A stretch of DNA of 40,646 nucleotides, from positions 1 through 40,646 of the forward strand of contig CACZIO010000035.1 in NCBI GenBank assembly GCA_902781215.1, read 5' to 3'. Origin of the DNA: an uncultured Lachnospiraceae bacterium. GTDB taxonomy: Bacteria; Bacillota; Clostridia; Lachnospirales; Lachnospiraceae. The translations under genes were made by a program, and so were the position numbers. How positions within the stretch are numbered: the first letter of the stretch is position 1; every line of letters begins with the position of its first letter. Positions 1-16,939 of the stretch are shown in pieces. The notes under the pieces are model-generated. The model was not told where the DNA came from, searched no databases, and was given only the letters and a program-made list of their open reading frames with translations.

Positions 1-243
1 CATCGCACCGGAGCCATCCAGGTAATACCATTTGCCGGACAGGTATTTCCACCCCGTCACCATCGCACCGGAGCCATCCAGGTAATACCATTTGCCGGAT
101 ATTTTGACCCAACCGGCCTGCATCTCTCCATCTGAATTAAAAAAATAGTAATCTCCGTCAATGAAATTCCATCCGGTTACAGCTGCATGGTCATCACTGA
201 AATAGTAGCTTTTTCCATCACTACTTCGATACCATCCCGTTAC
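1..243 (-). repeat. Cell-wall-binding repeat array (60-bp units) in the coding sequence
   Basis: Four consecutive 60-bp units (1-60, 61-120, 121-180, about 181-240) each encode one 20-residue wall-binding motif. Units 1-60 and 61-120 are nearly identical over most of their length, which indicates recent duplication. The outer two are diverged. The array runs off the window. Confidence 0.85.
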
Positions 244-2107: not shown

Positions 2108-4042
2108 TTAAGTGATCTTAACCAATTTATCGTGATCGTAGTCTATCTGATATATGGAATTGTCCTTTATGTCTCCCGGTTCAGCAAATAACTCCTTGAA
2201 TTCGCTTTTAAAGTACTCGTCGCACTGCATGATAGCAACCCATTTATATTTATGCTCTCCAAACAACTCCTTCCTGAAATCTTCAGCATGCATCTCTTTG
2301 TAATACATGTTTTCCGGATCCGCCTTATCTACAAAGCACCAATTGTAGTTATTCCCTGCTGTCGATTGCAAGGTCAGTTCAGGGCGGAGCATAAATTTTA
2401 CATATAAGTAATGCGTACCAGTATTGGACTGGGAGATAAAATAAACCTGATCTCCAGGCTCACCAATTGCCTTCAGTTCTTCACTTATATAATCTGTATA
2501 TTTCCTTTCTTGTTGTTCTCCATACGGGTAATAACGAGTCAAATACAGATATGTTGTAGATAAGGGCGATGCAAGTACTGTGACCACCAATGAGACAAGT
2601 ATCAAACTCCGGTGTAGTGTGTGTTTTTTGCATTCAAGAAATACGATCACCAGTATTTCGAGTAGCAGCATACAAAACAAAGTGTTTGTATATCTCTCAA
2701 AAGATGCAAGCGTTTCAGCTTCTGTTTTAACAAATTTATCGACATAGACACCGCCCAGTCCAATGAAGTAGACACCCATACAGAAAAAGCTGACAAGTAT
2801 ACCTACGCAAATCCTTTTATTATCTCTTTTTAAACAGCATATGCATATACATATTAGCACCAGGCCGAGCAAGAGCTGTATGTAACTGACCTGAACTAAT
2901 CCACTCACCAGACTGATCTGCCTGGTAAACAGCGCAGTTCTGAATGCTTCGATACACGTGTTCTTATATGATTCACTGTATGTTTCGAAGCCTGACAATA
3001 CCTTAAAGTATTTTCCCCACCTGACCCGGTCCGGTTTGGGATCAATAACATGATATGCCCGGATAATCATAGTCCAGCTAAGTTTTCCTATGACAACAAG
3101 TAATGCAGCAACGAGCACTTTCGCATGTTTTCTTTGTCCCGTTTCAATTATGATGAAATATAAAAGTCCGAATATAGAAAAGAGAAGTCCCATATCTTTC
3201 GTTAATACCGTCGCAGGCAGCAGGATACAAAAGTATAAAAACGAATATTCGGGGACATCCTCGTACATTACAAGCAGAAATAAAACTGCTCCCTCACACG
3301 CCAGGAAAGGGTCGATCATGAGCCTGAAAAAAACACCTCCAAAAAACACCGTCACTGCCAGGCATACAGTTAACAGAAATGCAGCTGCATATTGAACATT
3401 ATTTAAAGAGAGGGGCGATTTGGTGCGAAATTTGGATTCTAATATAGTTTTATTTCTGAAACAGCCTGATACAAAAGGTAGAAACAGGGAGAGACATACC
3501 ATGTGATAAGTCAGAAACATCAACCATTCAGAAAAAGTTTTCCGGGAAATGAACAGATAATATTTCTGTATAATGAACTGAATCAATGCCATCATCGGCG
3601 GATATGTTGGAAAAGACGAATTTGTAGAGGGATCAGTATAAAAGACATCATTATAAGTCAATACTTTGACACAATCCAGCCAATGTCCCGGATCATCTGT
3701 TCCTGTTACAAGCTGTCCATAATCACAGACTATGAACAACAGAAAGAAAAATAAGTAACATAGAAAGGCAGCATTGATGAATGAGCGAATACCGACACCA
3801 GCGGTTCCGTTTCGCAGAGACACAACAAGCCCTGTCAGCCAGCATGTTGCCACAATTATACCTACGATTACAATCCCGGATTTCAGGGATCCTGCCAGAC
3901 CACATACATATACTATAATTCCATAAAGAAGAACTGCGACAGGCGTAACTTCACCAAACTCTTTATGCAGAACAAATGCTGCACAAAAATCTCCCGAAAA
4001 AAGTACGATGAAAAGAACTGCGCTTCCGATTATTAAACTCAT
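2108..4042 (-). CDS. Polytopic membrane protein, GT-C-type glycosyltransferase-like
   Basis: The product has 644 residues with a dozen or more hydrophobic segments over about 1-500, then a soluble C-terminal domain of about 120 residues. An acidic pair in GTDDPGHW (Asp116-Asp117) lies in the first large loop after the early membrane segments, followed by a TYPPM stretch. This layout recalls lipid-phosphate-sugar-dependent GT-C enzymes (PMT/ArnT-like) that act on the outer face of the membrane. The start is ATG, one base after the flippase stop, so translation is probably coupled. I infer that it adds a side sugar to the polymer outside the cell. It could also be an uncharacterised membrane protein typical of surface-polysaccharide loci. 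The family is not certain. Confidence 0.7.
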   Translation of the reverse strand: MSLIIGSAVLFIVLFSGDFCAAFVLHKEFGEVTPVAVLLYGIIVYVCGLAGSLKSGIVIVGIIVATCWLTGLVVSLRNGTAGVGIRSFINAAFLCYLFFFLLFIVCDYGQLVTGTDDPGHWLDCVKVLTYNDVFYTDPSTNSSFPTYPPMMALIQFIIQKYYLFISRKTFSEWLMFLTYHMVCLSLFLPFVSGCFRNKTILESKFRTKSPLSLNNVQYAAAFLLTVCLAVTVFFGGVFFRLMIDPFLACEGAVLFLLVMYEDVPEYSFLYFCILLPATVLTKDMGLLFSIFGLLYFIIIETGQRKHAKVLVAALLVVIGKLSWTMIIRAYHVIDPKPDRVRWGKYFKVLSGFETYSESYKNTCIEAFRTALFTRQISLVSGLVQVSYIQLLLGLVLICICICCLKRDNKRICVGILVSFFCMGVYFIGLGGVYVDKFVKTEAETLASFERYTNTLFCMLLLEILVIVFLECKKHTLHRSLILVSLVVTVLASPLSTTYLYLTRYYPYGEQQERKYTDYISEELKAIGEPGDQVYFISQSNTGTHYLYVKFMLRPELTLQSTAGNNYNWCFVDKADPENMYYKEMHAEDFRKELFGEHKYKWVAIMQCDEYFKSEFKELFAEPGDIKDNSIYQIDYDHDKLVKIT

Positions 4043-4043
4043 T

Positions 4044-5495
4044 TCACCTAAGACACTTCACTTTATAAAATATTTTTCTACAGTAAGTGACTGCAATACT
4101 ATTTTTAGAAATCAGTAAAAGAAAGAGATATAAAAAACCAGATACTACAACTTGCAAAAATAACCGTAATAACATATTATGAATATTTCCCAAAAGCCGG
4201 CACGCTATTATAATACCAATGCAGGAAAAAACGACAGACCCGTTATCTCTGTCAATCAGCCGGAATGTTAAACACTTTTTTGAGTAGATAAGGCAGATAA
4301 CACACATGATTGCTTCCGCCATGATTGTTGTCAACGCTGCAGCATTAATACCTATTACCGGTATAAGAATAAAATTAAAAACTACGTTTACCACCGCACT
4401 CAGAAGGGATGCATACAGAATAATTAATTCCTTTTTATTCGGCAGCAACACACAATTTGTGCACAGATAAGCAAAAATAGAAAACAATATACTAATACTA
4501 AGCAGACGTAATGCTCCGCCTGCTGAACTATACTTGCCGCTTGCGATCAAACAGATGACATCGTTACTGGTCAGAAACAGCCCTACAACTACAGGTATCA
4601 GAAATACAACTATTGTGTGAGATGTAATGTTAAATAAATTCTCGGCACGTTTACGTTCCTCTCTCATAAACAAGATAGAGAAACGGGGTACCAATACAGC
4701 GAGCAGAGCAACCAGCAGATTCTTTATTATTGTGTATATTTTGACGGCAGTGCTGTAGAGTCCTACTTCATAATCTCCCGCAAGGAAGCCCAGGATAATA
4801 ACATCCGAATTAACATAAATCGTAATCGTTACAGTAGAGGCAAAAATTACCAAAATAGGTTTTATATGCTTTATAAGACTTTTACTTAATGAAAACGTAA
4901 AGCCGATATATTTTTTCCTGACATAAAAGAAATTAACGATATGTGCTCCAGATAAAGCAATAGCGGTAATAATAACATATGTATAATAATCGTCTGCAGT
5001 TTTGACCAAAACCAGTGTTGCTATCAGGGAAAAAAACTGAAACATTATTGTACGGATTGCAATAAATGTAAAGTCCTCATATATATTGCATATCCAGCCC
5101 ACGCCTATCGTTGTGCTGATGATCTGGGCACTCATAATCAGGATCGACCAGAAATACACCCTTATCTTAGGTTGGAACAGCATTAACAGCAGCAAAGCCA
5201 AATATACAATGATTGTTGAAATCATATTGATAGAAAACACTTCTGTAGTGAAGTTTTTCATTTCTTCTGTGTTTTCTCTGTACTGCGCTCCTTCTCGAAT
5301 AGAATAATTCGATACGCCCAGACCAGCGAACAGAAGGCCATAATTGACGATTGATGCAGAAAAGTTAAACGCCCCGATCGATTCAACTGAGAGTACCCGG
5401 GAGACATACGGAAATGTAATGATTGGAAATACGATACTTGCAATAGTTTTAATTACATTTAACGCTGCATTTTTTTTTGCTGAACTGTAGACCAA
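4044..5495 (-). CDS. Wzx-type oligosaccharide flippase
   Basis: The 483-residue protein has about 12-14 membrane helices throughout. The N-terminus carries the pattern of the polysaccharide transporter (MATE/MOP) superfamily: ALNVIKTIASIVFPIITFPY, then SRVLSVESIGAFNFS. Such flippases move undecaprenyl-diphosphate-linked repeat units across the membrane. The length is normal for Wzx. The start is a TTG codon (5495-5493), supported by GGAGG eight bases upstream; no better in-frame ATG precedes it. It sits in the AT-rich cassette between the WbsX gene (36 bp upstream) and the GT-C-like gene. A Wzy-like gene nearby supports a Wzx/Wzy pathway. Confidence 0.9.
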   Translation of the reverse strand: MVYSSAKKNAALNVIKTIASIVFPIITFPYVSRVLSVESIGAFNFSASIVNYGLLFAGLGVSNYSIREGAQYRENTEEMKNFTTEVFSINMISTIIVYLALLLLMLFQPKIRVYFWSILIMSAQIISTTIGVGWICNIYEDFTFIAIRTIMFQFFSLIATLVLVKTADDYYTYVIITAIALSGAHIVNFFYVRKKYIGFTFSLSKSLIKHIKPILVIFASTVTITIYVNSDVIILGFLAGDYEVGLYSTAVKIYTIIKNLLVALLAVLVPRFSILFMREERKRAENLFNITSHTIVVFLIPVVVGLFLTSNDVICLIASGKYSSAGGALRLLSISILFSIFAYLCTNCVLLPNKKELIILYASLLSAVVNVVFNFILIPVIGINAAALTTIMAEAIMCVICLIYSKKCLTFRLIDRDNGSVVFSCIGIIIACRLLGNIHNMLLRLFLQVVVSGFLYLFLLLISKNSIAVTYCRKIFYKVKCLR

Positions 5496-5531: not shown

Positions 5532-6710
5532 TCAGTTTTTCTCTAACTCCCCAAGTTTCTCCAGAACATCTTTAATCGCATCCAGATAACCAGTGCCCCA
5601 CTTCTTATCAGGCTCGAGATAACCCCCTTCGCTCCATTCATTCCACGCAAATATTACAATTGTATCAGACTTATACACATCTCTTGCGCGTATAACCTGC
5701 TTTTCAAAATATTTCCGGAATTTCTCGGGAGAAGCTCCCAGAATCACTTTTCCGTTTCTGGCTCTTCTAGGGGTATTATCCCAGTCAGTAAATGCTCCGG
5801 GGATGTATCGTGAATAATCATCATGCTTGATCGAAAGTATTTTCTGCCAGTCAGAATCATAATCTCTGATATATTTGACACCTTCTGTCAGTTCATCTTT
5901 ATCAGTTCTCCTGTTCCTTCTCTTCAAAAGCTGATTGACAAAAGGTATTCTGTTTCTGATTGTCTGTGTGATATAACTTCTCCTGTAACGCTTGAGTTCC
6001 TTTTCGAAATCATCCTCCAGTCGTTCGACCAGACTAGGCTGATATTCCACGCCCTGATCAAACAGATTCTTCAACCTATCACTCATATAGCACATTGTTT
6101 CAGCGCAGAGATATTGGAAGGAAATTCCCTTAAATCCATTCTTTTTTGCGAGTTCATCCCATCTCTTTAAAGTATACTTCATGAGCTTTGGCGGTATTGC
6201 AATCGGATTATAGATATTTAGTATCGGACGTCCGTCTATCTTAATGTATCGCTCATCTTTGAAGAATTTTAAGAAATAGTAAAAATGATTATCAATATCT
6301 TTTCGGTCGCTGTAATTGTGTTCTATAAGAACACGCGGATTTGTCTCGCCTTCCCAAACTGTCGTCCAGCGCTCATTCGCCCAACAAAGGTAATAGCGAA
6401 AATCAATCTCTGTATGCATGAGATATTGTTCGATGGGTTTTTCGAGAAGACATTTTCCATTAAACCAATAGTGATAAAAGCAGAATCCATAAATACCATG
6501 TGACTTGGCCAGCTCTGCCTGCCACTTCATCACATTGATATCAGTCAGATCATAGTAGTTATCATCAAGAGGCTCACGTGGTTGATACTGTCCATCAATA
6601 TAGACCTGCCCTCGTTTTAAGGATGTCCACTCCGTATAACCATTTCCCCACCACGCATTGTTTTCTTTAATCTCATGATATTGGGGCAAGTAAAGCGCAA
6701 TAACTTTCAT
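5532..6710 (-). CDS. WbsX-like / glycoside hydrolase family 99-like protein
   Basis: The 392-residue soluble protein starts MKVIALYLPQYHEIKENN with WWGNGYTEW immediately after, the hallmark of the WbsX family. Further conserved blocks are FCFYHYWFNGK near residue 76, CWANERWTTVWEG near 108 and AWNEWSEGGYLEPD from residue 355. The fold is the GH99-type TIM barrel. Members occur widely in O-antigen and capsule loci, often fused to or beside glycosyltransferases. Whether they hydrolyse, transfer or edit glycans is not settled. A GGAGGG site lies just before the ATG. There is no signal peptide, so it probably acts in the cytoplasm on lipid-linked intermediates. Confidence 0.88.
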   Translation of the reverse strand: MKVIALYLPQYHEIKENNAWWGNGYTEWTSLKRGQVYIDGQYQPREPLDDNYYDLTDINVMKWQAELAKSHGIYGFCFYHYWFNGKCLLEKPIEQYLMHTEIDFRYYLCWANERWTTVWEGETNPRVLIEHNYSDRKDIDNHFYYFLKFFKDERYIKIDGRPILNIYNPIAIPPKLMKYTLKRWDELAKKNGFKGISFQYLCAETMCYMSDRLKNLFDQGVEYQPSLVERLEDDFEKELKRYRRSYITQTIRNRIPFVNQLLKRRNRRTDKDELTEGVKYIRDYDSDWQKILSIKHDDYSRYIPGAFTDWDNTPRRARNGKVILGASPEKFRKYFEKQVIRARDVYKSDTIVIFAWNEWSEGGYLEPDKKWGTGYLDAIKDVLEKLGELEKN

Positions 6711-6760: not shown

Positions 6761-7936
6761 TTAATATATTTTTTCTTTCCTCGCAATTATATCCGCGATA
6801 ACTATTCCAAAATAGAAAACGTGAGACACGAAATTAGTAAGGTGCGCAACAAAGAAAAGCCCTGTAAAAACAACACAGCAACACCACACATAATTGTCGA
6901 TTTTCTTAGCCATAAGGTTCAGAATACAAAGAGCCTCAAGAATTACACCTACCACACCGTATTTATAGATTGTGTCAACAAATCCGGTAATATACCACTC
7001 ATAATTGTGTTGATCACCATACCCGAATAGCAGTGTACTGCCATTCATATTACCAATAGCATCCTCCCAGTTATGAGTCCTGCCCGCAATAGCATTATAC
7101 CCATCCACGGAAGAGAAAATACGTTGCAGAGCGACCTTAAAAAACGGGATCTGTAACAGTACGAGGAGAGCAACTGCAGCCAATGGAATCCACTTAAGCC
7201 AGCTGAGGATTTTTCTATAGAGCGACTGGTTATTTAGAATGACATACCATGCAAAAACACCAGCGGTCAGTACAATTCCCATCCCCGACGTTGTGAATAT
7301 ACACCCCATCCCGATCAAAATAGCCCTATTTAGTTTTATTTTCTGCTGCCCGCCAGGAAACAGAGTAGAGATTAAACCATAAATACAGTATTGTGTGAAG
7401 TGAGAAGGTTCCAGAAACAGCGCGCTTGGCCTATATAAACCGCTAACTTCTGCAAATACGAAACTATTCCTATATTCCTCATAAATCAGTTGTTGAGGTA
7501 TATACTGCAACCGGATATGTAAAAAATAGTACGATACCAGCTGTGTCATCAACAGCACAACATTTAACAGAGAATAAATCTCAATGATGTTTCTGATTTT
7601 TCGTGAATTGATGGATCCCTTCATCATTCCGTACAAATGCAGGAAAGCTGAACATCCCAACATAATACGACTGATATTTCCTTCAAAACGAAGAATCAAA
7701 TATCCATAAAACAGGAAAAAGAATACTGCAGTTGAATTTCGTACATATACTCCTTTGAGAATATAATAAAAAGCATATGGAATGAATCCCAATAAGATTA
7801 CAGTCCCAAAGCTCAAGTTGAGTCCCGGTACCCATAAGAGATACAGCACGGGTAACAGAGCAATACTGATATGATAAAAAGCGCCAATGAGTCCCAACGG
7901 CCGGAAGGATCTCCAAAACTTTGTTATTCGAATCAC
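6761..7936 (-). CDS. Wzy-like polysaccharide polymerase (O-antigen polymerase)
   Basis: The 391-residue membrane protein has about 10-12 hydrophobic segments. A large extracytoplasmic loop near residues 130-185 contains SGLYRPSALFLEPSHFTQY; Arg/His-bearing loops of this kind are usual in Wzy proteins. It starts with GTG at 7936, preceded by GAGG nine bases upstream. Wzy enzymes polymerise undecaprenyl-linked repeat units on the outer face of the membrane and are poorly conserved, so the call rests on topology, length and position between LicD and Wzx. The LicD gene ends only 24 bp upstream, so the two are surely co-transcribed. Confidence 0.8.
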   Translation of the reverse strand: MIRITKFWRSFRPLGLIGAFYHISIALLPVLYLLWVPGLNLSFGTVILLGFIPYAFYYILKGVYVRNSTAVFFFLFYGYLILRFEGNISRIMLGCSAFLHLYGMMKGSINSRKIRNIIEIYSLLNVVLLMTQLVSYYFLHIRLQYIPQQLIYEEYRNSFVFAEVSGLYRPSALFLEPSHFTQYCIYGLISTLFPGGQQKIKLNRAILIGMGCIFTTSGMGIVLTAGVFAWYVILNNQSLYRKILSWLKWIPLAAVALLVLLQIPFFKVALQRIFSSVDGYNAIAGRTHNWEDAIGNMNGSTLLFGYGDQHNYEWYITGFVDTIYKYGVVGVILEALCILNLMAKKIDNYVWCCCVVFTGLFFVAHLTNFVSHVFYFGIVIADIIARKEKIY

Positions 7937-7960: not shown

Positions 7961-8782
7961 TCAAATGTTGTGGTCGCTGTCGAGATAAAAAGCCTCAAAT
8001 ACATGATGGCTTTTCTGTTCTTCAATAGGCGGTAATTGCATATAGTTTCCATAATATGCTTTCAACCAGGTATCATACGCAGCTGGAGCGGGATATTTCT
8101 TACCCTCAAATTCAATTTCAATGAAGTTTTCGAAGAGGCTTCTTGGTATTGTTAGGTATCTGGTATCGTAAGGATCCGCAAAGTCGCAAACAAATTCGTT
8201 GTATTTGTTTTCGTATTTTTTTGCATTTTTATCCAACATTCTGTTGACTCTGCTTTGGGGCATTCCGCTCAAAAGTGCAGCTCCGAGACGGTACATCAAC
8301 TTCTTTGGTTGCGTCATCCCATCTCTCATTGGCAACTGCAGTCTCCTGATTCGCCCGAGTAAGTCTCTCTTTTTGAACATTCGTTGTTTCTCATGTTCAT
8401 CATCAGGCGCGTTGTCATACGGAAAAACATCAACGTACACAGATGATCGAATTCCTTCACTTCCATACTCGAGTAATACAGTATCAGTCCTGACAAGCTT
8501 TCCAAAAGGATACCGATGGTCAGGGTTGTTTTGTGGGGTAAATAGTTTGTACCTTCTGTCTGTCTGCTCGTTGAATAACTTTTCTGCTATAGAATAGTCT
8601 TCTCGCAACATTCCTATATCAATATCGTCATCCCAGGGAATATATCCCCCATGGCGTACAGCACCAAGCAATGTACCATAATCAAGCCAGTAATGAATAT
8701 TGTTTTTTTTGCAAAAAGCATCAAATTGATCCAGGATTTCTATCTGGATTAATTTCAGTTCTCTTATATCTATCTGTCTCAT
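7961..8782 (-). CDS. LicD-family phosphotransferase
   Basis: The 273-residue protein has the diagnostic LicD block at residues 31-56: YWLDYGTLLGAVRHGG, then IPWDDDIDIGM. This is a nucleotidyltransferase-fold active site with paired aspartates (Asp51-53, Asp55). Family members transfer phosphocholine or other phospho-groups onto surface glycans. No licA/B/C choline genes lie in the window, so the transferred group may be something else, such as a phospho-polyol or another phosphodiester-linked group. The ATG is preceded by a weak GGGAA site, only 20 bp after the GT4 stop. It is probably a decoration enzyme acting on the repeat unit. Confidence 0.9.
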   Translation of the reverse strand: MRQIDIRELKLIQIEILDQFDAFCKKNNIHYWLDYGTLLGAVRHGGYIPWDDDIDIGMLREDYSIAEKLFNEQTDRRYKLFTPQNNPDHRYPFGKLVRTDTVLLEYGSEGIRSSVYVDVFPYDNAPDDEHEKQRMFKKRDLLGRIRRLQLPMRDGMTQPKKLMYRLGAALLSGMPQSRVNRMLDKNAKKYENKYNEFVCDFADPYDTRYLTIPRSLFENFIEIEFEGKKYPAPAAYDTWLKAYYGNYMQLPPIEEQKSHHVFEAFYLDSDHNI

Positions 8783-8802
8783 ATAAGTTCCCGGGGCCGA
8801 GC

Positions 8803-9960
8803 CTAATTATTTCTCGCCAAATCTTCATATTGATGAAAAACATTCTTTTCCATTTGTTCCAGAGAATAACTGCCAACAGCATCTGCTCTGGCCTTTTTGG
8901 CTATAGCTATCATGTCTGCCCGGTTGTAATATAGGAACTGTATCAAATCCGAAAGGTCTGTTTCGCTCTGATAATCAAAGACATAACCGTTTCTGCTATT
9001 TTCTATAATTTCTGTGTTTGCTCCTGTATTACTTACCACTGGGCACAGACCAGCCGCCATATATTCCACTGTTGCCAATCCAAATCCTTCGCCTCTGGAA
9101 CAGTTCAAACCAATATCATAGTTTTTTAATATCTGTCCGACATCATTCCGATATCCATGCAACTTCAAATGCAATTGATATTCACGTGCCAGCTTTCTCA
9201 AGGACGACACATATTCTTTTGATCCTTCACCTATACAGTCAAGGTACAAATGTTCTTTCACATTTGCGGGCAGCCGTGAAAGCTTTTCAATTACGGCCAG
9301 TTGACCCTTCGCCGGGACAAGATGACCTACTATAACAAGTTTCAGTATTTCTTTGTCATCATATTTTGTCTTAGGCTGAATTGAGTTGAGATCGATGCCA
9401 TTGCGGATGACAGACATTTTTTTTTCCGGCAGTCCATTCTCTACCCATTCTCTTGCGACTGTGGCGGAGATAGCTGCAAACCGGTCCGCATGACATGCCA
9501 TCCATTCCATCTGATTATTCTTTAGAAAAGACAGCTGATAATGTGCTTTGAACAATTCCTGTATATGCCATAGATGTGGAATCTGATATTTTTCTGATAG
9601 AATTCCTCCGAGAAGATCTCTTGTAAGATTCGTGTGGATCACATCAATTGATTTTATATCAACATGAGACTCAACAAATCTACATGCCTTTGTTGTAAGA
9701 TATTCTGCTTTGATCAGCCATATATTGCGTTTAATCTTATCCAATGTCCTGACAGACATTTCTTTATACACAAAAAAGGTAAACGGGACAACATAGTATT
9801 TGACATCGAGCTTACTGCATACTTCAGAGACAACCCCTTGATGGGCACAAATAACAGTATAATTAATATTATTTTTTACCCCTGCCTTGATCAGATTGAT
9901 TGCTATAATCTCCGAGCCGTACTTATTTCCTTCTCCGCCAACAATGTAGAGGACATTCAT
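8803..9960 (-). CDS. Glycosyltransferase family 4 (GT-B fold)
   Basis: The 385-residue protein starts MNVLYIVGGEGNKYGSEI, a GT-B N-terminal domain with the glycine-rich loop. The donor-binding half carries LVIVGHLVPAKGQ and the retaining EX7E signature in RGEGFGLATVEYMAAG. It likely adds one sugar to the lipid-linked repeat unit on the cytoplasmic side. An AAGGAG site lies before the ATG. The ATP-grasp gene ends nine bases upstream. The sugar donor cannot be read from sequence. Confidence 0.92.
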   Translation of the reverse strand: MNVLYIVGGEGNKYGSEIIAINLIKAGVKNNINYTVICAHQGVVSEVCSKLDVKYYVVPFTFFVYKEMSVRTLDKIKRNIWLIKAEYLTTKACRFVESHVDIKSIDVIHTNLTRDLLGGILSEKYQIPHLWHIQELFKAHYQLSFLKNNQMEWMACHADRFAAISATVAREWVENGLPEKKMSVIRNGIDLNSIQPKTKYDDKEILKLVIVGHLVPAKGQLAVIEKLSRLPANVKEHLYLDCIGEGSKEYVSSLRKLAREYQLHLKLHGYRNDVGQILKNYDIGLNCSRGEGFGLATVEYMAAGLCPVVSNTGANTEIIENSRNGYVFDYQSETDLSDLIQFLYYNRADMIAIAKKARADAVGSYSLEQMEKNVFHQYEDLARNN

Positions 9961-9969
9961 ATGTACTCC

Positions 9970-10920
9970 TTATCCGTTCACAAGGATACTTTGATCAAAC
10001 CGGCTATAGATTTCTCCATCTTTCGCCACTTTCTTTCCATAATAATCGCAACGTTCTCCCATAAGGAGTCTAAGAAGTGCCTCGCTGCTGTCTGCTCCCG
10101 CCTTGATACTCAGTGGAGCTCCCCCGCCAAATCTTGGATTGATTTCAATATAATAATCTTTCCCTGAAGCAGTCTCTCGTATCAATTGAATCGTCATAGG
10201 TCCACAGGGCTTAAACGCGGCAACAATCGCCTCTACCTCAGAAATAATTCTTTTGTCCTGACAAATCTGTGTTTTCAATACCTCTCCAGATCGTACTGCC
10301 AGTCTGATGCGAGGAGTAATGTATATAGGAATGCCATTGAAGTCACAAAAAACATCTACAGTATATTCTTCCCCTCTGATAAAAGGCTGTACTATATAGT
10401 CTGGAACCATTTTTGAAAGCGTTTCCAGTTCACTGGAATCCGAGACCTTATAAGCATTAATGCTTGAGCTTCCATCCTTCGGCTTAATAAAAGCCGGATA
10501 TCCCTTATCGTATTTCTTATAATCATCTACAGGCTGTGGATAATCCACCCCTGCTTTTTTGAAGAATTCTCCTGTCAGTCTCTTATCCCTGCAGATTCTG
10601 ATAGCATCCGCAGAACTGACTATAACTCTTGTATTTCCAAATAACTCTTTGTTTTCTGCCAGAATCTGAAGATCCGTATCAATCGTTGGGATCAGTGCAT
10701 CTATACCATTGCCCTCGCAATACTCCGTCAGAAACGGGATGTACTCAGGATCGCTTATCCTCGGGGTACGCACTTTTCTATCACAAAAGAATAAAGCCGG
10801 TGCTGAAAGAGAAATATCTGCTCCTATTATTTCCAGTTGCAAACATGCTTTCTGCGCCGCAGTTCTAAATGATTGTACGAGTTCAACCCTGCGTCCAACG
10901 CTAGTAAATAGAATTCTCAT
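9970..10920 (-). CDS. ATP-grasp family ligase of a surface-polysaccharide locus
   Basis: The 316-residue protein opens with a pre-ATP-grasp Rossmann-like domain (MRILFTSVGRRVELVQSF). The ATP-grasp domain has lysines in AFIKPKDGSSS (Lys146, Lys148), the acidic pair in FIRGEEYTVDV and the metal-binding YIEINPRFGGGAPL (Glu259, Asn261, Arg263). It resembles carbamoyl-phosphate-synthase-large-subunit-like proteins of capsule loci. ATP-grasp enzymes join a carboxylate to an amine or thiol through an acyl phosphate. Here it may attach an amino acid or other acid to an amino sugar (inference). The ATG at 10920 is chosen because GGAG sits at the right distance upstream; a GTG 12 bases earlier overlaps that ribosome site. 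Confidence 0.88.
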   Translation of the reverse strand: MRILFTSVGRRVELVQSFRTAAQKACLQLEIIGADISLSAPALFFCDRKVRTPRISDPEYIPFLTEYCEGNGIDALIPTIDTDLQILAENKELFGNTRVIVSSADAIRICRDKRLTGEFFKKAGVDYPQPVDDYKKYDKGYPAFIKPKDGSSSINAYKVSDSSELETLSKMVPDYIVQPFIRGEEYTVDVFCDFNGIPIYITPRIRLAVRSGEVLKTQICQDKRIISEVEAIVAAFKPCGPMTIQLIRETASGKDYYIEINPRFGGGAPLSIKAGADSSEALLRLLMGERCDYYGKKVAKDGEIYSRFDQSILVNG

Positions 10921-10936
10921 GTCTTTCTCCACTGAC

Positions 10937-11971
10937 CTACCTTCTCTTTATTACGCCCACTAAAGAGGAGATCGTATTAATCATCCAATATTGATGGTGA
11001 TATAGTGCCCAGGCAATAACTTTCCTGTATGCCTCAAGATGGTTGAGTGAAAAATCTTCTCGAAACATCTCATCCTCAGAGAGCATTTTCAGATACTGTT
11101 TTTTGCTAACCGGTGATTTCGGTGGCATGCTCCTGACTTTGACTGCCGCAATACAAATATCTGTGATATAATTAGCTTTTATTAAACTATCCGTGAATTC
11201 AGACTTGTACTTCCATCCCTTTGAATAATTGATAACGCTCCTGTGAAGAAACCGAATACTATTGTAAAAATTCACAACATCATAGTGTTTACTGGCGCTG
11301 TTTTGATTCTGTACTCTCCAATAATAAAAAGTATCCTGTAAATACATTACCTTGGATGCTCTTGAGAGAATCGGAAGAATCAATAACGGGCCGTCTCTAA
11401 GCATCCGATAGTTCTCCGTATATTCAAAATCTCCGTCAAACAACTCCCGTTTAAATACCATCATCCAGATATGATGCAGATTCTTGCTTTTCAAATACTC
11501 ATCATATATTACTTGGAGTTTTTCTCCTTCAAATAACTCCTTGTCCGCGAAAGGAATGTTGCACAGGAGATGCCCGGTCTCTATATTATCAGTCGCATTG
11601 AAAATGATTAAATCACATTCATACTCACAAATACGATCTCTGATTGTTTCAAACGCGGTTTTCGACACAATCAGGTCGTCATTGTCCATTACATATAAAT
11701 ACTTTCCATGAGACGCATTAATACCGTTCCTTTTTGCAATATAAACTCCCGTATTTTTCTGATGAATTACCTGTATCTTTTCAGGATACTTCCTCTTCCA
11801 TTCATCACAGATTTGTACACTTCGGTCCGTTGACTCATCATCTACCAATATCAGTTCGTAATCTGTACATGTTTGAGCAAAAACCGATTCTATACATTCA
11901 TTCAGATATTTTTCACTGTTATATACTGGAATTACAACTGAAAAGAAGGGATTATTTACACTACTCACCAT
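10937..11971 (-). CDS. Glycosyltransferase family 2 (GT-A fold)
   Basis: The 344-residue protein has the GT2 start FSVVIPVYNSEKYLNECIES, the nucleotide-binding Asp pair in LILVDDESTD (Asp44-45) and the metal-binding DxD-type VMDNDDL (Asp96, Asp98). The C-terminal 200 residues are the variable acceptor domain. ATG at 11971 is preferred because AGAGGGAG lies just upstream and the GT2 fold begins at once. An ATG 48 bases further up would add an uncharacteristic extension inside the previous gene. The gene overlaps the end of the sugar-transferase gene by 11 bp. It probably adds an early sugar to the undecaprenyl-linked primer. Confidence 0.92.
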   Translation of the reverse strand: MVSSVNNPFFSVVIPVYNSEKYLNECIESVFAQTCTDYELILVDDESTDRSVQICDEWKRKYPEKIQVIHQKNTGVYIAKRNGINASHGKYLYVMDNDDLIVSKTAFETIRDRICEYECDLIIFNATDNIETGHLLCNIPFADKELFEGEKLQVIYDEYLKSKNLHHIWMMVFKRELFDGDFEYTENYRMLRDGPLLILPILSRASKVMYLQDTFYYWRVQNQNSASKHYDVVNFYNSIRFLHRSVINYSKGWKYKSEFTDSLIKANYITDICIAAVKVRSMPPKSPVSKKQYLKMLSEDEMFREDFSLNHLEAYRKVIAWALYHHQYWMINTISSLVGVIKRR

Positions 11972-12593
11972 GACCACTCCCTCTAAATTCAGACATAACA
12001 TCAGCAGTACCGTTTCCAATACCTTCTCTTTTCAGAACTGTTAGTATTGTCTTTATAATAATGGCAGCATCCATGCGAAAGCTGATATTTTCAACATATC
12101 GAACATCCATATCAAACTTTTCTTCCCAGCTAATAGCATTTCTACCATTTGCCTGTGCATACCCTGTTAAACCGGGACGAACCAAATGTCTCTTTCGCTG
12201 ATGCTCATTGTATAAAGGCAAATACTTTACCAGCAGCGGACGAGGTCCGACAATGCTCATATCCCCTTTTAAAATGTTAATTAATTCCGGCAACTCATCC
12301 AGAGATGTTGAACGAAGTCTTTTCCCGAATTGTGTCAGCCTTAATTCTTTTGGGAGTAATTCACCGTTCTCATCTGTTTCATTGGTCATTGATCTAAACT
12401 TATAAAGTCGAAAAATAACTTCCTTTCCAGTCAGAGGATCAATCTTACCTGGTCTTTCCTGTGTGAATAAAACCGGGGATCCCAATTTCATCCGAACCAA
12501 TATGGCAACTATTGCAAATACAGGCGATAAAATAATTAACGCCAGCCCGGATAGAATTATATCCAATGGCCTTTTAATATAATGTTGATACAT
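11961..12593 (-). CDS. Initiating phosphoglycosyl transferase, PglC-like
   Basis: The 210-residue protein is a small monotopic sugar transferase. One hydrophobic re-entrant helix at about residues 8-34 is followed by KFRSM (65-69), the Asp99-Glu100 catalytic dyad in SLDELPELINIL, GPRP (116-119) and RPGLTGYAQANGR. Enzymes of this short form move a phospho-HexNAc-type sugar from UDP to undecaprenyl phosphate, the first membrane step. PglC itself uses UDP-di-N-acetylbacillosamine, which fits the dehydratase and aminotransferase genes upstream. The ATG directly follows the stop of the acetyltransferase gene, with AGAGGA upstream. The C-terminal tail is slightly longer than in Campylobacter PglC. 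Confidence 0.92.
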   Translation of the reverse strand: MYQHYIKRPLDIILSGLALIILSPVFAIVAILVRMKLGSPVLFTQERPGKIDPLTGKEVIFRLYKFRSMTNETDENGELLPKELRLTQFGKRLRSTSLDELPELINILKGDMSIVGPRPLLVKYLPLYNEHQRKRHLVRPGLTGYAQANGRNAISWEEKFDMDVRYVENISFRMDAAIIIKTILTVLKREGIGNGTADVMSEFRGSGHGE

Positions 12594-13187
12594 TTATTCG
12601 CATCCTCTCGTGCCTTTTTTATTATTCATCTGGTTCCAACACCATTTTTCTAATTCCACCGACATTTTATGTCCATATGGGGTCAAGTGCTCAGGATAAG
12701 TCATCTCTTTCTTTCTTCGAACAAAGAAATCATCAAATGTACCAATCACCTTAGCCGGCACTCCGACAGCAATGGAATTGTCAGGAATATCTTTATTAAC
12801 AATGCTGCCGGCGCCTATTATCACTTTTGAACCAATTCTGACATCACACAGAATTGTCGTATTAGAACCCACAAAAACATTGTCACCTATTTCAATACAT
12901 CCGATTTTTTCTCTGATATAGTCTGGCCCTTGAAGATTCGCATAATTATTGAGACAGAGGTGAATTGCATCATGGGGCACAAGCAACACTTTCGCAGCGA
13001 GATGAACATTATTTCCTATGGAAATCAACCTGGGATACAACGGGATTTTTCGCTCAACAATTGTACAGTTGTCTCCTACATGATAAAAAATATGGTGCCG
13101 CTTCAAATAGTCTGCCCTGTCACCGCTCGAGAAAATCATCATCAGTCGCAATGAATGCCAGCCCCGTTTTAATGTTTGTATGTTCAT
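12594..13187 (-). CDS. Hexapeptide-repeat acyltransferase (maltose/xenobiotic acetyltransferase-like)
   Basis: The 197-residue protein has left-handed beta-helix hexapeptide repeats, such as IEIGDNVFVGSNTTILCDV and IGSKVIIGAGSIVNKDIP, ending with the usual GVPAKVIG cap near residue 150. Such trimeric enzymes acetylate sugars using acetyl-CoA. It lacks the N-terminal Rossmann-like domain of PglD, so it is not a clear PglD orthologue, although its place between aminotransferase and PglC-like genes makes acetylation of the 4-amino sugar possible. ATG 13187 is chosen because CGGAG lies five bases upstream; the ATG at 13217 has no such site. Confidence 0.88.
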   Translation of the reverse strand: MNIQTLKRGWHSLRLMMIFSSGDRADYLKRHHIFYHVGDNCTIVERKIPLYPRLISIGNNVHLAAKVLLVPHDAIHLCLNNYANLQGPDYIREKIGCIEIGDNVFVGSNTTILCDVRIGSKVIIGAGSIVNKDIPDNSIAVGVPAKVIGTFDDFFVRRKKEMTYPEHLTPYGHKMSVELEKWCWNQMNNKKGTRGCE

Positions 13188-13247
13188 AATCGCTCCGCTG
13201 CATACCCCATCTATCAATGCACTCTATGCTAAAACTTAAGGCTTACC

Positions 13248-14555
13248 TTATATGAAACAACGATGGATGATCTTGATCACAATTTCCTGTTCTTCTGGCG
13301 TCATCTTGTTATCGCTGGGCAGGCAGAGGCCCCTGCGGAAGATGTCAGCGCCGACATCTGTGCCGGTTCCGGCGATATAGGCGTTGCTGCGCCCTCGGCC
13401 GTTGCCCTCTACCGTTATGAAGGCATGAGACTGGTAGATCGGCTGCATGTGCATGGGTTTCCAGATGGGTCGTCCCTCGGCATGAAAGGCAGTGAGTGCA
13501 TCCAGAATCTCCTGCGGGGAGCTCTTGCCGGGTACGCTCTGGTAGAGATAATCCCGTTCTCCGCGCACCTGGGGAGCCATGGCATCCTCATCGATCAGCA
13601 TGCAGGAGAGCCAGAAATTGGGCTGACTTTTCTCCTCATCCCAGGGATTCATGGAGACAGGGAGGTCCTTCAGGCCCTCCTTATACCGCTCGTAAATGGC
13701 GCGCTTCTGGGCAATGTGCTCGTCCAGATAAGGGATCTGGCCGCGGATGACACCGGCGATGATGTTGCTCATGCGGTAGTTGTAGCCAATCTCCTCGTGC
13801 TGATACCAGGGAGCTGCCTCCCGGCTCTGGGTAGACCACTTGCGAACCTTATCGGCATCCTCCCCGGAGTCGGTCAAAAACATGCCTCCGGCAGAACCGG
13901 TGATAATCTTGTTGCCGTTGAAGGAGATGCAGTTGTAGTTGCCCAGGGTGCCTGTCTCGACCCACTGTCCGTTCAGCTTATATTTAGCGCCCAGGCTCTC
14001 GGCGGCATCCTCGACGATCAGAGCGCCGTGGCGGTCCGCAATCGCCTTGATCTCCTCCATCTTCCCGGGCGTGCCGTAGAGGTGGGCGACGACGATGAGG
14101 CGCGTATCCGGATACATCTCGAAGGCCTTCTCCAGGGCTTGCGGGCTCATGTTCCAGGTATCGTACTCGGTGTCGATAAAAACAGCCTCGCCATCCTCAT
14201 AGGAGACCGGATTGATCGAGGCGTCGAAGGTGCAGTCCGAGCAGAAGACGCGGTGACCCTGCAGGGTGCCGGCGTTCGGCCTTGCCTGGCCGTAGAGCTT
14301 CTCTCCGGCGAGCTTGGTCGCCAGGTGCAGGGCAGCGGTACCGGCAGAGAGGCCGACTGCATATTTTACGCCGACATAGTCTGCGATCAGCTTTTCGACC
14401 TCATTGATGTTGGCGCCGACCGTGGAGACCCAGTTGGTCTCGATTGCATCATCCACCCAGCGTTGCTCGTCGCCATGCATGGTCGGGCTGCTCAGCCAGA
14501 CTTTCTTTTCAAATTTCTGAATTCCTTCAAATCTTGGATCCTTTAAAAAATCCAT
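13248..14555 (-). CDS. DegT/DnrJ/EryC1/StrS-type PLP aminotransferase for a nucleotide 4-keto sugar
   Basis: The 435-residue protein has the family layout: an N-terminal substrate loop (SSPTMHGDEQRWVDDAIETN), SAGTAALHLA near residue 70, VEDAAESLGA with the PLP-contacting Asp183, and SFNGNKIITGSAGG with Schiff-base Lys216. The NWVSTVGANINEVE and SFNGNK forms are those of PglE/LegC enzymes, which aminate UDP-4-keto-6-deoxy-HexNAc. The dehydratase gene directly upstream supplies that substrate. A GAGGAA site precedes the ATG. Base composition is clearly GC-richer than in the genes downstream. It is slightly longer than the usual 370-400 residues. Confidence 0.92.
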   Translation of the reverse strand: MDFLKDPRFEGIQKFEKKVWLSSPTMHGDEQRWVDDAIETNWVSTVGANINEVEKLIADYVGVKYAVGLSAGTAALHLATKLAGEKLYGQARPNAGTLQGHRVFCSDCTFDASINPVSYEDGEAVFIDTEYDTWNMSPQALEKAFEMYPDTRLIVVAHLYGTPGKMEEIKAIADRHGALIVEDAAESLGAKYKLNGQWVETGTLGNYNCISFNGNKIITGSAGGMFLTDSGEDADKVRKWSTQSREAAPWYQHEEIGYNYRMSNIIAGVIRGQIPYLDEHIAQKRAIYERYKEGLKDLPVSMNPWDEEKSQPNFWLSCMLIDEDAMAPQVRGERDYLYQSVPGKSSPQEILDALTAFHAEGRPIWKPMHMQPIYQSHAFITVEGNGRGRSNAYIAGTGTDVGADIFRRGLCLPSDNKMTPEEQEIVIKIIHRCFI

Positions 14556-14769
14556 TTGTTTTTCCTCGTTATTTCCTTCTAATACAGGCTGACTCTGTCT
14601 GCTTTCCGGATCAATTCAGAATAAAATGATCATCCTGTTCGTAAAAATTCAGAGGCATGGTTAGCATAAACATGTTAATGAGATGTTCTAGCCGTATGTT
14701 TATTTTTCTCATATTATTTATGCAATGTGAATCTATTCGCACACAGATAATCAATATCCAGACAAATCC
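14556..14769 (-). other. 214-bp gap in the polysaccharide operon, possible secondary promoter
   Basis: This AT-rich gap separates the dehydratase and aminotransferase genes. TTGCAT (14725-14720) lies 17 bases before TAAACA (14702-14697) on the minus strand, a weak match to a housekeeping promoter. No terminator-like hairpin with a T run was seen, so read-through from the main promoter is likely. Confidence 0.35.
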
Positions 14770-16836
14770 CTATGTAGTTTCAGCAGCCTGCTCCGTGGTC
14801 TTCAACAGCTTCTGATACATGGCATCCTTTTTCCCGGAATCACTCGCATTCTCGGGATGGTACGTTGAAACGATTCCTTCTACCATCTCGCGTATGATGT
14901 CCTCACGATTCGCATAAGCTGTATTCATGAGTTCCGCGAGCTGCCCCAGGAAGTTCTCCGTTTCAAAGGGAATCGGACAGCCGATATGAATCAACTCATT
15001 CTCTGTCTTTTTCAGCCCTTCTTCTGCCATAAGTTTCTCTTCATAAAGCTTCTCACCGGGTCGAAGGCCTGTGTATTCAATTTTGATGTCCACATCCGGT
15101 TTGAATCCGGAGAGGCGGATCAGGTTTCTCGCCAGGGTATCGATCTTAACCGGACTTCCCATATCCAGGACAAAGATTTCTCCCCCGTGGGCATAGGTTC
15201 CCGCCAGCATGACAAGGCTGACCGCCTCAGGAATGGTCATGAAATAGCGGATAATATCCGGATGTGTGACCGTGACAGGACCACCCTTTTCAATCTGTTT
15301 CTTGAAAATCGGAATGACTGACCCGTTGCTACCCAGGACATTGCCAAAGCGGACCGCGACGAATTCTGTCCGGATGTTCTCAAACACATGACCCGTACCA
15401 TCCCTGTCCGCGTTTTCAACGCCTTCATGGGTGAACAGCTGGGGGATCTCTCCGGCCTTGCCATCTTTGATTTTCTGGTCAAAGCTCTGAACGATCATCT
15501 CACAGAGCCGCTTGGAAGCTCCCATAATATTGGTGGGATTCACGGCCTTGTCTGTAGAGATCAGGACGAATCGCTCACATCCATGAACCATGGCAGCGTA
15601 TGCCGTCTTATAGGTCCCGATCGCATTGTTCTTAATTGCCTCGCAGGGGCTGTCCTCCATAAGCGGAACATGCTTGTGTGCCGCTGCGTGATAAACAATC
15701 TGCGGCCGATAGGCTTCAAAGAGTTCGAATATTCTCCTGCTGTCCCGCACAGATCCGATCAGGACATCCAGCTTCAGATCCGGATACTTCTCCCTCAGCT
15801 CCAACTGGATGGAGTAGGCATTGTTCTCATAGATGTCGAAAATGATCAGATGCCCGGGATTGTGAGCAGCGATCTGCCGGCAGAGCTCACTGCCGATGGA
15901 TCCACCGCCGCCCGTGACCAGGACTGTCTTCCCATTAATAAAGGAAAAGACCTCCTGCATATCCGCCCGGATCGGCTCACGTCCAAGAAGGTCCTCAACA
16001 GAGACATCCTTCATGGCGGAGACTGTGACCTGGTCCAGGATCAGTTGGTACATGCCGGGCAGGTTCTTCAGTTCACAGTCCGTCTCCTGACAGATGTTGA
16101 GGATATCTCGTCGTTCCGCAGCGGTCGCACTGGGAATTGCCAGATAAATCTTTTCAATCTGAAACTTCTCGACATTCTCAAGTATTGTCTCACGTCCCCC
16201 GACGACCGGGATTCCGTCGATAAAGCGGTGCCATTTATTGGGCTCATCGTCGATGATACAGACGACCCTCTCCACAACCTCCTTTGCCGCATTGATGTCC
16301 CGCAGGATCAGGCGGCCGGCAGAGCCGGCTCCAATCAGCATGACCCGCTTAGGCGGCAGACCATTTGGCTGTTTCTTACGCCCTTCCGCCAGGAGGAGAA
16401 CCAACCGGTAGGAGAACCGGACACTGATGACCAGCACGAACTGAAGCAGGGCTCCGAATACGTAATAGGTCATGGGCATACGGCGCAGCCACAGGGTAAT
16501 ACCTGCAGTGTGGACAACAGCCGAAATCACAGATGCAATCACAACCCTGATCAATTCTGTGTAGCTCGCAAAACGCCACACACTGTTGTACAGCCGCATC
16601 CGTGTAAAAAGGATAAGACAGCAAACTGTGTAGATTGGTGCAAACCGCAGCCAACTCCCATAATAAATCTCTGGTATCCTGGAAAACTGGCAGTCAAATC
16701 GCAGCCACAGCGCTCCAAAATAGGCTGCATTGACCACGATTGCATCGTAGACCACCAGGAGGGCACTGATCACCTGCCAGTGCTGGATCCGGCGCCTTCC
16801 CACCTGATTATTCTCTGCTGAAGATTCCATGCCCAT
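14770..16836 (-). CDS. Membrane-bound UDP-HexNAc 4,6-dehydratase (PglF/WbpM/CapD family)
   Basis: The 688-residue protein has four N-terminal membrane helices (about residues 20-160), a CoA-binding-like Rossmann domain (MLIGAGSAGRLILRDI near 167-182) and a short-chain dehydratase domain (VLVTGGGGSIGSEL near 305-318). The catalytic set is the WbpM/PglF type: Ser427 in STDKAVNPTNIMGASKR, with Met438 replacing the usual Tyr, and Lys442. This class converts UDP-GlcNAc to UDP-2-acetamido-2,6-dideoxy-4-hexulose. It is the promoter-proximal gene of the operon. ATG 16836 follows AGGG; an upstream ATG at 16890 adds 18 atypical residues. Confidence 0.93.
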   Translation of the reverse strand: MGMESSAENNQVGRRRIQHWQVISALLVVYDAIVVNAAYFGALWLRFDCQFSRIPEIYYGSWLRFAPIYTVCCLILFTRMRLYNSVWRFASYTELIRVVIASVISAVVHTAGITLWLRRMPMTYYVFGALLQFVLVISVRFSYRLVLLLAEGRKKQPNGLPPKRVMLIGAGSAGRLILRDINAAKEVVERVVCIIDDEPNKWHRFIDGIPVVGGRETILENVEKFQIEKIYLAIPSATAAERRDILNICQETDCELKNLPGMYQLILDQVTVSAMKDVSVEDLLGREPIRADMQEVFSFINGKTVLVTGGGGSIGSELCRQIAAHNPGHLIIFDIYENNAYSIQLELREKYPDLKLDVLIGSVRDSRRIFELFEAYRPQIVYHAAAHKHVPLMEDSPCEAIKNNAIGTYKTAYAAMVHGCERFVLISTDKAVNPTNIMGASKRLCEMIVQSFDQKIKDGKAGEIPQLFTHEGVENADRDGTGHVFENIRTEFVAVRFGNVLGSNGSVIPIFKKQIEKGGPVTVTHPDIIRYFMTIPEAVSLVMLAGTYAHGGEIFVLDMGSPVKIDTLARNLIRLSGFKPDVDIKIEYTGLRPGEKLYEEKLMAEEGLKKTENELIHIGCPIPFETENFLGQLAELMNTAYANREDIIREMVEGIVSTYHPENASDSGKKDAMYQKLLKTTEQAAETT

Positions 16837-16939
16837 TAAATCCCTATCTGTAAACAAAAACACCGGTTGAGACAAAATCTCCCTCGGCACTCATTTTTGT
16901 CTTATTTCTATCTATATTTCCGTGAACACAAGTGTAGAA

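Follow-up and report, generated by a model that had tools for sequence, protein, structure and literature searches.

A candidate ATP-grasp acylation step for the first sugar of a surface polysaccharide locus with LicD in an uncultured Lachnospiraceae bacterium

The closest described counterpart of the system considered here is found in Neisseria, for which a passage of PMC11130364 describes how PglB (acetyltransferase/phosphoglycosyltransferase) leads to diacetylbacillosamine (diNAcBac), while the variant PglB2 (ATP grasp/phosphoglycosyltransferase) leads to a glyceramido-acetamido trideoxyhexose (GATDH), the two forms being mutually exclusive. In the portion of PMC6959607 that deals with PglB2, the role proposed for its C-terminal domain is to add a glycerol moiety instead of an acetyl group; glycopeptides of N. 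oralis are reported there to carry GATDH, with oxonium ions given as m/z 275.1/257.1 for GATDH and 229.1/211.1 for diNAcBac, and the legend to the Neisseria pgl gene order lists, for N. oralis, a formyl transferase as well as a HAD hydrolase. In this study, a stretch of 40,646 nucleotides from an uncultured Lachnospiraceae bacterium (contig C35 of a 3.33 Mb assembly that is 94.67% complete; the whole stretch is referred to as the window) was analysed in silico, with emphasis on a separate ATP-grasp ligase gene, P0008, which lies among genes for PglF-, PglE- and PglC-like enzymes and a LicD-family phosphotransferase. The literature searches turned up no description of ATP-grasp and HAD as a separate pair at PglC loci. 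With moderate confidence, we propose that the window carries a Wzx/Wzy-type surface polysaccharide locus, the first sugar of which is a 4-N-acylated trideoxyhexose that is acylated by the ATP-grasp ligase.

Primer-sugar genes and the alternation of PglD with ATP-grasp

An initial annotation of this DNA had named PglF-, PglE-, PglC-, ATP-grasp- and LicD-family genes, and had read the first three as pointing to an amino-dideoxy HexNAc primer. All of the named genes are intact open reading frames (ORFs) on the minus strand, with coordinates that were exact or nearly so, and Pfam and PDB matches confirm their presence (Table 1); the end given for this set, 16836, is an internal ATG of the dehydratase ORF and a possible start of that gene. 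Homology also backs the proposed primer since, in addition to the family matches, the dehydratase has the stretch STDKAV-PTNIMG in common with 5bju (WlaL), the aminotransferase matches the LegC model TIGR04181 at 277 bits (under the cut-off of 420), and the best PDB match of the PglC-type enzyme, 8e37, is titled 'N,N'-diacetylbacilliosaminyl-1-phosphate transferase'. We take 5bju/WlaL to be the PglF, and 1o61 and 4ztc the PglE, of Campylobacter. If the amine is left unacylated, the dehydratase, the aminotransferase and PglC would, judged by homology, together yield a lipid-linked 2-acetamido-4-amino-2,4,6-trideoxy sugar. PglD was not found above the NeuD/PglD cut-off anywhere in the 94.67% complete genome, the best match reaching 64 against 160.8 bits. 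The ATP-grasp ligase matches PylC-like_N (85.0 bits), ATP-grasp_3 (70.4 bits) and ATPgrasp_Ter (55.0 bits), all above their cut-offs, and displays the ATP-grasp fold with the invariant metal-binding Glu/Asn.

Two samples of loci were drawn regardless of ATP-grasp, anchored on the PglE and on the PglC of this window, and were scored with purpose-built profiles at limits of at least 100 bits for PglD and at least 60 bits for ATP-grasp. The PglE-anchored sample, taken at the level of the order, comprised 71 places, 69 of which were used (the window itself and a second fragment in G424:C54 were left out; L185 and L187, two of the 69, overlap); 18 of these lacked PglC downstream within 5 kb and three were too short, leaving 48 scored loci. 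The PglC-anchored sample, taken across the phylum, comprised 76 places and was reduced to 60 by leaving out the window itself, G146 and 14 places that ranked weakest or were partial. Loci with weaker ATP-grasp matches (L194 and L288), or with ATP-grasp or PglD just past the distance limit (L201 and L237), were counted as possessing neither gene.

Among the 48 PglE-anchored loci, ATP-grasp was present in 21, PglD in 14, both in one and neither in 12 (Fisher p=3.6e-4), and when the sample was reduced to genus-class pairs the corresponding numbers were 12, 12, 1 and 11 (p=0.011). Similarly, 37 of the 60 PglC-anchored loci possessed PglD within 3 kb, nine possessed ATP-grasp, none both and 14 neither (p=1.2e-4 on the 48 loci with PglE), and the count of loci with both was zero at 2, 3 and 5 kb alike. 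Furthermore, six of the nine ATP-grasp loci of this sample had a HAD phosphatase gene within 3 kb, as against 0/37 PglD loci (1/37 with the limit at 5 kb), and the orders PglC-PglD-PglE-PglF and PglC-ATP-grasp-HAD-PglE-PglF both exist. Because these loci hold PglD or ATP-grasp, and almost never both, the idea put forward in the initial annotation, that the ATP-grasp ligase amidates the amino sugar, is well supported, if short of proven, by the alternation in the two samples together with the PglB2 precedent in Neisseria as outlined in PMC11130364 and PMC6959607. Strict exclusion of PglD by ATP-grasp was considered and rejected, as both occur in 9/80 loci of an ATP-grasp-anchored sample, and exclusion at the level of the genome was set aside as resting on too few cases, PglD (E 1e-20) being found in 0/7 genomes with a close ATP-grasp (E<=1e-100, own genome included) versus 35/146.

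ATP-grasp neighbourhoods and alternatives for the amine

The ATP-grasp-anchored sample consisted of 80 loci kept out of 185 relatives. Of these loci, 69 had PglC and 62 had PglE at no more than 5 kb and on the same strand, while the HAD phosphatase was fused to ATP-grasp in 47, separate but close in 27, and present anywhere on the same strand of the stretch in 76; the fusion was also read from the ORFs of loci L014, L015 and L017. HAD is absent from this window and from its two nearest loci. The order PglF-PglE-PglC-ATP-grasp-HAD recurs in relatives, and comparable sets are encountered further afield: aminotransferase, sugar transferase, ATP-grasp and HAD genes adjoin one another on a Priestia plasmid, and in Segatella copri sugar transferase, ATP-grasp, glycosyltransferase, HAD and aminotransferase genes lie near one another. 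On a Palleronia plasmid (L304), dehydratase and aminotransferase genes are followed by a formyltransferase-ATP-grasp-HAD run, with no sugar transferase in the stretch; this run parallels the formyl transferase and HAD hydrolase of the Neisseria legend (PMC6959607). In Acetoanaerobium, the stretch inspected bears no annotation in its record. Additionally, two classes of ATP-grasp take part in the alternation with PglD: one resembles that of the window and mostly has HAD, and the other, which is more distant, follows PglC in the place of PglD with no HAD seen nearby (L167-L169, L173, L174, L177, L178, L180, L183, L206, L222 and others) and may use a different acid.

The initial annotation had cited no described polymer with this exact set of genes. 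A search for the ATP-grasp/LicD/PglC combination across genomes, which it had suggested, revealed that the combination recurs, with PglC and LicD beside ATP-grasp in 27/80 loci; the idea of a unique gene set was thus rejected, and an ATP-grasp-amidated primer is itself described in Neisseria, according to the passage of PMC11130364 on PglB2.

Several observations weigh against acylation of the primer by the ATP-grasp ligase. The HAD partner was not found in the bacterium's own genome, in a search that lacked a positive control, and the complete PglF-PglE-PglC-ATP-grasp-HAD orders number three in one mapped set. PglC is absent within 5 kb in 8 of the 56 loci that have at least 5 kb on both sides, and a Roseibium ATP-grasp-HAD pair has neither PglE nor PglC in the stretch shown. 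PglD also occurs within 5 kb in 9/80 of the ATP-grasp-anchored loci, in some of which ATP-grasp may act on another residue. Moreover, L163, scored as possessing ATP-grasp alone, has a weakly PglD-like hexapeptide protein (85 bits, limit 100), L219 has a PglD-like gene outside the 4-kb limit, and in Segatella a short, weakly PglD-like ORF (62 bits) lies between PglC and ATP-grasp. The p-values given above take related genomes as independent beyond the genus step, and the hexapeptide gene between PglE and PglC of this window could encode an N-acetyltransferase.

Some of these observations would suit a primer that keeps a free 4-amine, with the ATP-grasp ligase amidating another residue, for example by coupling an amino acid to a uronic acid; zwitterionic polysaccharides contain 2-acetamido-4-amino-2,4,6-trideoxygalactose with such a free amine. 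The Roseibium pair and the loci that also possess PglD (9/80) fit this arrangement, as do the loci with neither PglD nor ATP-grasp (12/48 and 14/60), which may have a free amine or else an acyltransferase that escaped notice. However, ATP-grasp directly follows PglC in many loci, at the position where others have PglD, and loci with both genes are rare in the samples drawn regardless of ATP-grasp (1/48 and 0/60). Additionally, none of the 20 window proteins that were scanned with Pfam matched a UDP-glucose dehydrogenase family, and we therefore regard a free amine as unlikely.

Acylation by the hexapeptide protein P0011 is, in our estimation, less probable still: in that case P0011 would be the 4-N-acetyltransferase, the primer would be plain diacetylbacillosamine, and the ATP-grasp ligase would act later. 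Its position between PglE and PglC, which is also that of hexapeptide proteins in L059, L077, L093 and L104, would agree with such a role. With the NeuD/PglD model, however, P0011 scores 58 bits, the match being confined to the last 52 positions, and it scores higher, at 74.5 bits, with the WbbJ O-acetyltransferase model, itself under cut-off; WbbJ is an O-acetyltransferase in vivo. Furthermore, a P0011-type gene is located within 5 kb in just 11 of the 80 ATP-grasp loci, and this family is associated with LicD (8/11, p=0.003) but not with PglD (p=1.0). Acylation of the primer by the ATP-grasp ligase is thus preferred over both alternatives.

Gene run, polymer type and the LicD phospho-group

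The genes in question form part of a minus-strand run that extends from 16890 down to 2108 in the order dehydratase, aminotransferase, hexapeptide protein, PglC, GT2, ATP-grasp, GT4, LicD, Wzy-like, WbsX, Wzx-like and hydrophobic protein (Table 1). The hexapeptide, GT2 and GT4 genes inside the range of the initial annotation, and the Wzy-like, WbsX and Wzx-like genes downstream of it, had been left out. Measured in 2-kb steps, the G+C content is 38-41% between 2 and 13 kb and about 48-60% past 13 kb, with a value of about 51% for the aminotransferase and dehydratase genes; such a profile is typical of variable glycan loci. A nucleotide search of plasmids with positions 7961-14555 returned partial matches alone, with a best coverage of 13%.

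Table 1. Predicted genes of the window, with coordinates, strand and supporting matches.
Feature	Coordinates	Strand	Supporting matches and remarks
PglF/WbpM-like UDP-GlcNAc 4,6-dehydratase, long form	14770..16890	-	PF02719, 382 bits; best PDB match 5bju ('WlaL protein'), E 5e-81
PglE/LegC-like pyridoxal phosphate-dependent aminotransferase, predicted to give the 4-amino sugar	13248..14555	-	PF01041, 234.4 bits; best PDB match 1o61 (E 2e-58), also 4ztc
Hexapeptide acyltransferase P0011, probably an O-acetyltransferase (WbbJ/MAT-like)	12594..13217	-	Hexapep PF00132, 38.7 bits
PglC-type phosphoglycosyltransferase, predicted to initiate the lipid-linked unit	11961..12593	-	PF02397, 198.3 bits; best PDB match 8e37/8g1n, E 7e-67
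GT2 glycosyltransferase	10937..12019	-	PF00535, 105.6 bits; the gene probably starts downstream of the TTG given
ATP-grasp ligase P0008, proposed to acylate the primer 4-amino group	9970..10932	-	PylC-like_N, ATP-grasp_3, ATPgrasp_Ter
GT4 glycosyltransferase	8803..9960	-	PF00534, 88.8 bits
LicD-family phosphotransferase, likely to decorate the glycan with phosphocholine	7961..8782	-	PF04991, 155.3 bits (cut-off 22.6)
Wzy-like polymerase, weak match	6761..7936	-	PF04932, 27.2 bits (under cut-off 31.7)
WbsX-family glycosyltransferase	5532..6710	-	PF14307, 382 bits
Wzx-like flippase	4044..5495	-	PF01943, 105.4 bits (over cut-off)
Hydrophobic protein, probably membrane-spanning (by eye)	2108..4042	-	no Pfam match
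Choline-binding-repeat protein, runs off the window, probably secreted (by eye)	1..1980	-	PF19127, 83.2 bits; PF01473, 65.4 bits

With the PF02397 initiating transferase and the PF01943 flippase both over cut-off, the locus would be of the Wzx/Wzy type. The initial annotation had left the choice between an undescribed glycan and a protein-glycosylation system; protein glycosylation is here the less likely of the two, and a Wzx/Wzy polymer is favoured. An oligosaccharide made for attachment to protein would agree with the names PglF, PglE and PglC, which derive from such systems, with the under-cut-off match of the Wzy-like protein, and with the presence of an O-antigen-ligase-family protein on the other strand. 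The Wzx-like flippase and the several glycosyltransferases in the gene run nevertheless argue for a polymer, an STT3-type match was obtained for 0/20 window proteins scanned, and we consider protein glycosylation very improbable. The O-antigen-ligase-family protein (17083-18741, plus strand; PF04932, 47.5 bits), whose gene adjoins that of the dehydratase, is a possible second polymerase or ligase.

The suggestion that LicD adds a phospho-group without any choline genes nearby holds locally, as LicD is present and no choline gene was found among the 20 window proteins scanned; it does not hold for the genome, which carries four LicD genes and, on contig C18, a lic-type set in which a winged-helix/nucleotidyltransferase/choline-or-ethanolamine-kinase fusion, a second nucleotidyltransferase and a BCCT transporter are encoded in a row. 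This set (L298:4640-14951) adjoins a gene for a protein of 1928 amino acids with choline-binding and leucine-rich repeats. Phosphocholine is consequently the likeliest group to be transferred by LicD, and the choline-binding-repeat protein at the edge of the window is a possible reader of it. Transfer of another group from a CDP donor, e.g. glycerol phosphate or phosphoethanolamine, appears less likely, although ethanolamine kinases also belong to the C18 kinase family and, of the three further LicD genes, those on C13 and C94 have small CTP_transf_like cytidylyltransferase genes next to them or close by (L301:2752-4135, L300:6780-8111). The contiguous kinase-nucleotidyltransferase fusion, second nucleotidyltransferase and BCCT transporter, together with the choline-binding-repeat proteins by the C18 set and at the window edge, speak against such a group. 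The cytidylyltransferases near other LicD genes hint at differing donors for each LicD.

Proposed pathway and comparison with known systems

By homology, PglF and PglE would convert UDP-GlcNAc to UDP-2-acetamido-4-amino-2,4,6-trideoxyglucose, the 4-amino group of which would be joined as an amide to a small carboxylic acid that has been ATP-activated by the ATP-grasp ligase, a task that appears to fall to PglD in many relatives. By analogy with Neisseria, the acid would most likely be glycerate, giving a GATDH-type sugar in which the glyceryl group would account for +88 Da, although this assignment is tentative; passages of PMC4052302 describe other acyl groups, namely hydroxyglutaric and malic acid, on surface sugars of marine bacteria, and glycerate is therefore not the sole option. 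Undecaprenyl phosphate would receive the sugar phosphate through PglC, and the chain would be extended by GT2, GT4 and WbsX; the hexapeptide enzyme may O-acetylate it, and LicD would attach phosphocholine, or a different phospho group carried by CDP, that the lic-type set on the other contig would supply. The unit would then be flipped by Wzx and polymerised by Wzy. In most relatives, the HAD phosphatase probably frees the acid from a phosphorylated form (e.g. phosphoglycerate) or dephosphorylates the product. The genes, their families, their neighbourhoods and the counts are observed; the substrate, the acid, the order of steps, the phosphocholine and the role of HAD are inferred.

More speculatively, the 4-amine of the undecaprenyl-linked starter sugar could be a swappable decoration point across bacteria, a single slot that is served either by PglD (acetyl) or by a split ATP-grasp and HAD pair, which would couple a phosphorylated acid drawn from central metabolism before taking off its phosphate, giving a glyceryl or other hydroxy-acid amide; GATDH-type first sugars would then be common in polysaccharides of gut Lachnospiraceae, sometimes with phosphocholine. 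If this were true, the gene beside PglC would reveal the acyl group of the starter sugar, providing a rule for reading glycan clusters, the Neisseria protein-glycan modification would extend to capsule-like polymers of gut Clostridia, and the HAD phosphatase would be a candidate for a step that so far has no assigned enzyme.

Compared with known systems, P0008 has the fold and the invariant Glu/Asn in common with PylC and other ATP-grasp amide ligases, while its identity to PylC is 20-21% and its gene context and presumed substrates differ. The LicD family and the kinase, nucleotidyltransferase and BCCT transporter genes of lic operon systems are also present in this genome; unlike in those systems, the latter set is located on a different contig from the LicD gene of the window, and donor and acceptor are putative. 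The PglF-, PglE- and PglC-type enzymes of the Campylobacter pgl diNAcBac pathway are the best solved-structure matches of the corresponding proteins here, whereas PglD, in contrast to that pathway, is missing from the locus and has no match over cut-off in the genome.

The comparison with Neisseria PglB2 relies on its published description, and there are differences: the present locus is a Wzx/Wzy-type Firmicute locus with LicD, and its ATP-grasp and PglC are encoded by separate genes, fusion of the two being found in 0/80 loci (a PglC ORF of 618 amino acids in L265 lacks an ATP-grasp match). An ORF of 420 amino acids with PglC and PglD domains, the architecture of Neisseria PglB, was observed in the same phylum (L296, G598:C164). 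Nevertheless, as far as the cited passages describe the Neisseria system, it resembles this locus in its dehydratase, its aminotransferase, its PglC-type transferase and an ATP-grasp that replaces the acetyltransferase; the PglB/PglB2 alternatives resemble the alternation of PglD with ATP-grasp, and the HAD hydrolase of the pgl legend parallels the HAD in the ATP-grasp loci of relatives. An ATP-grasp-amidated primer having already been described in Neisseria, this locus is a variant of that theme and not a new category.

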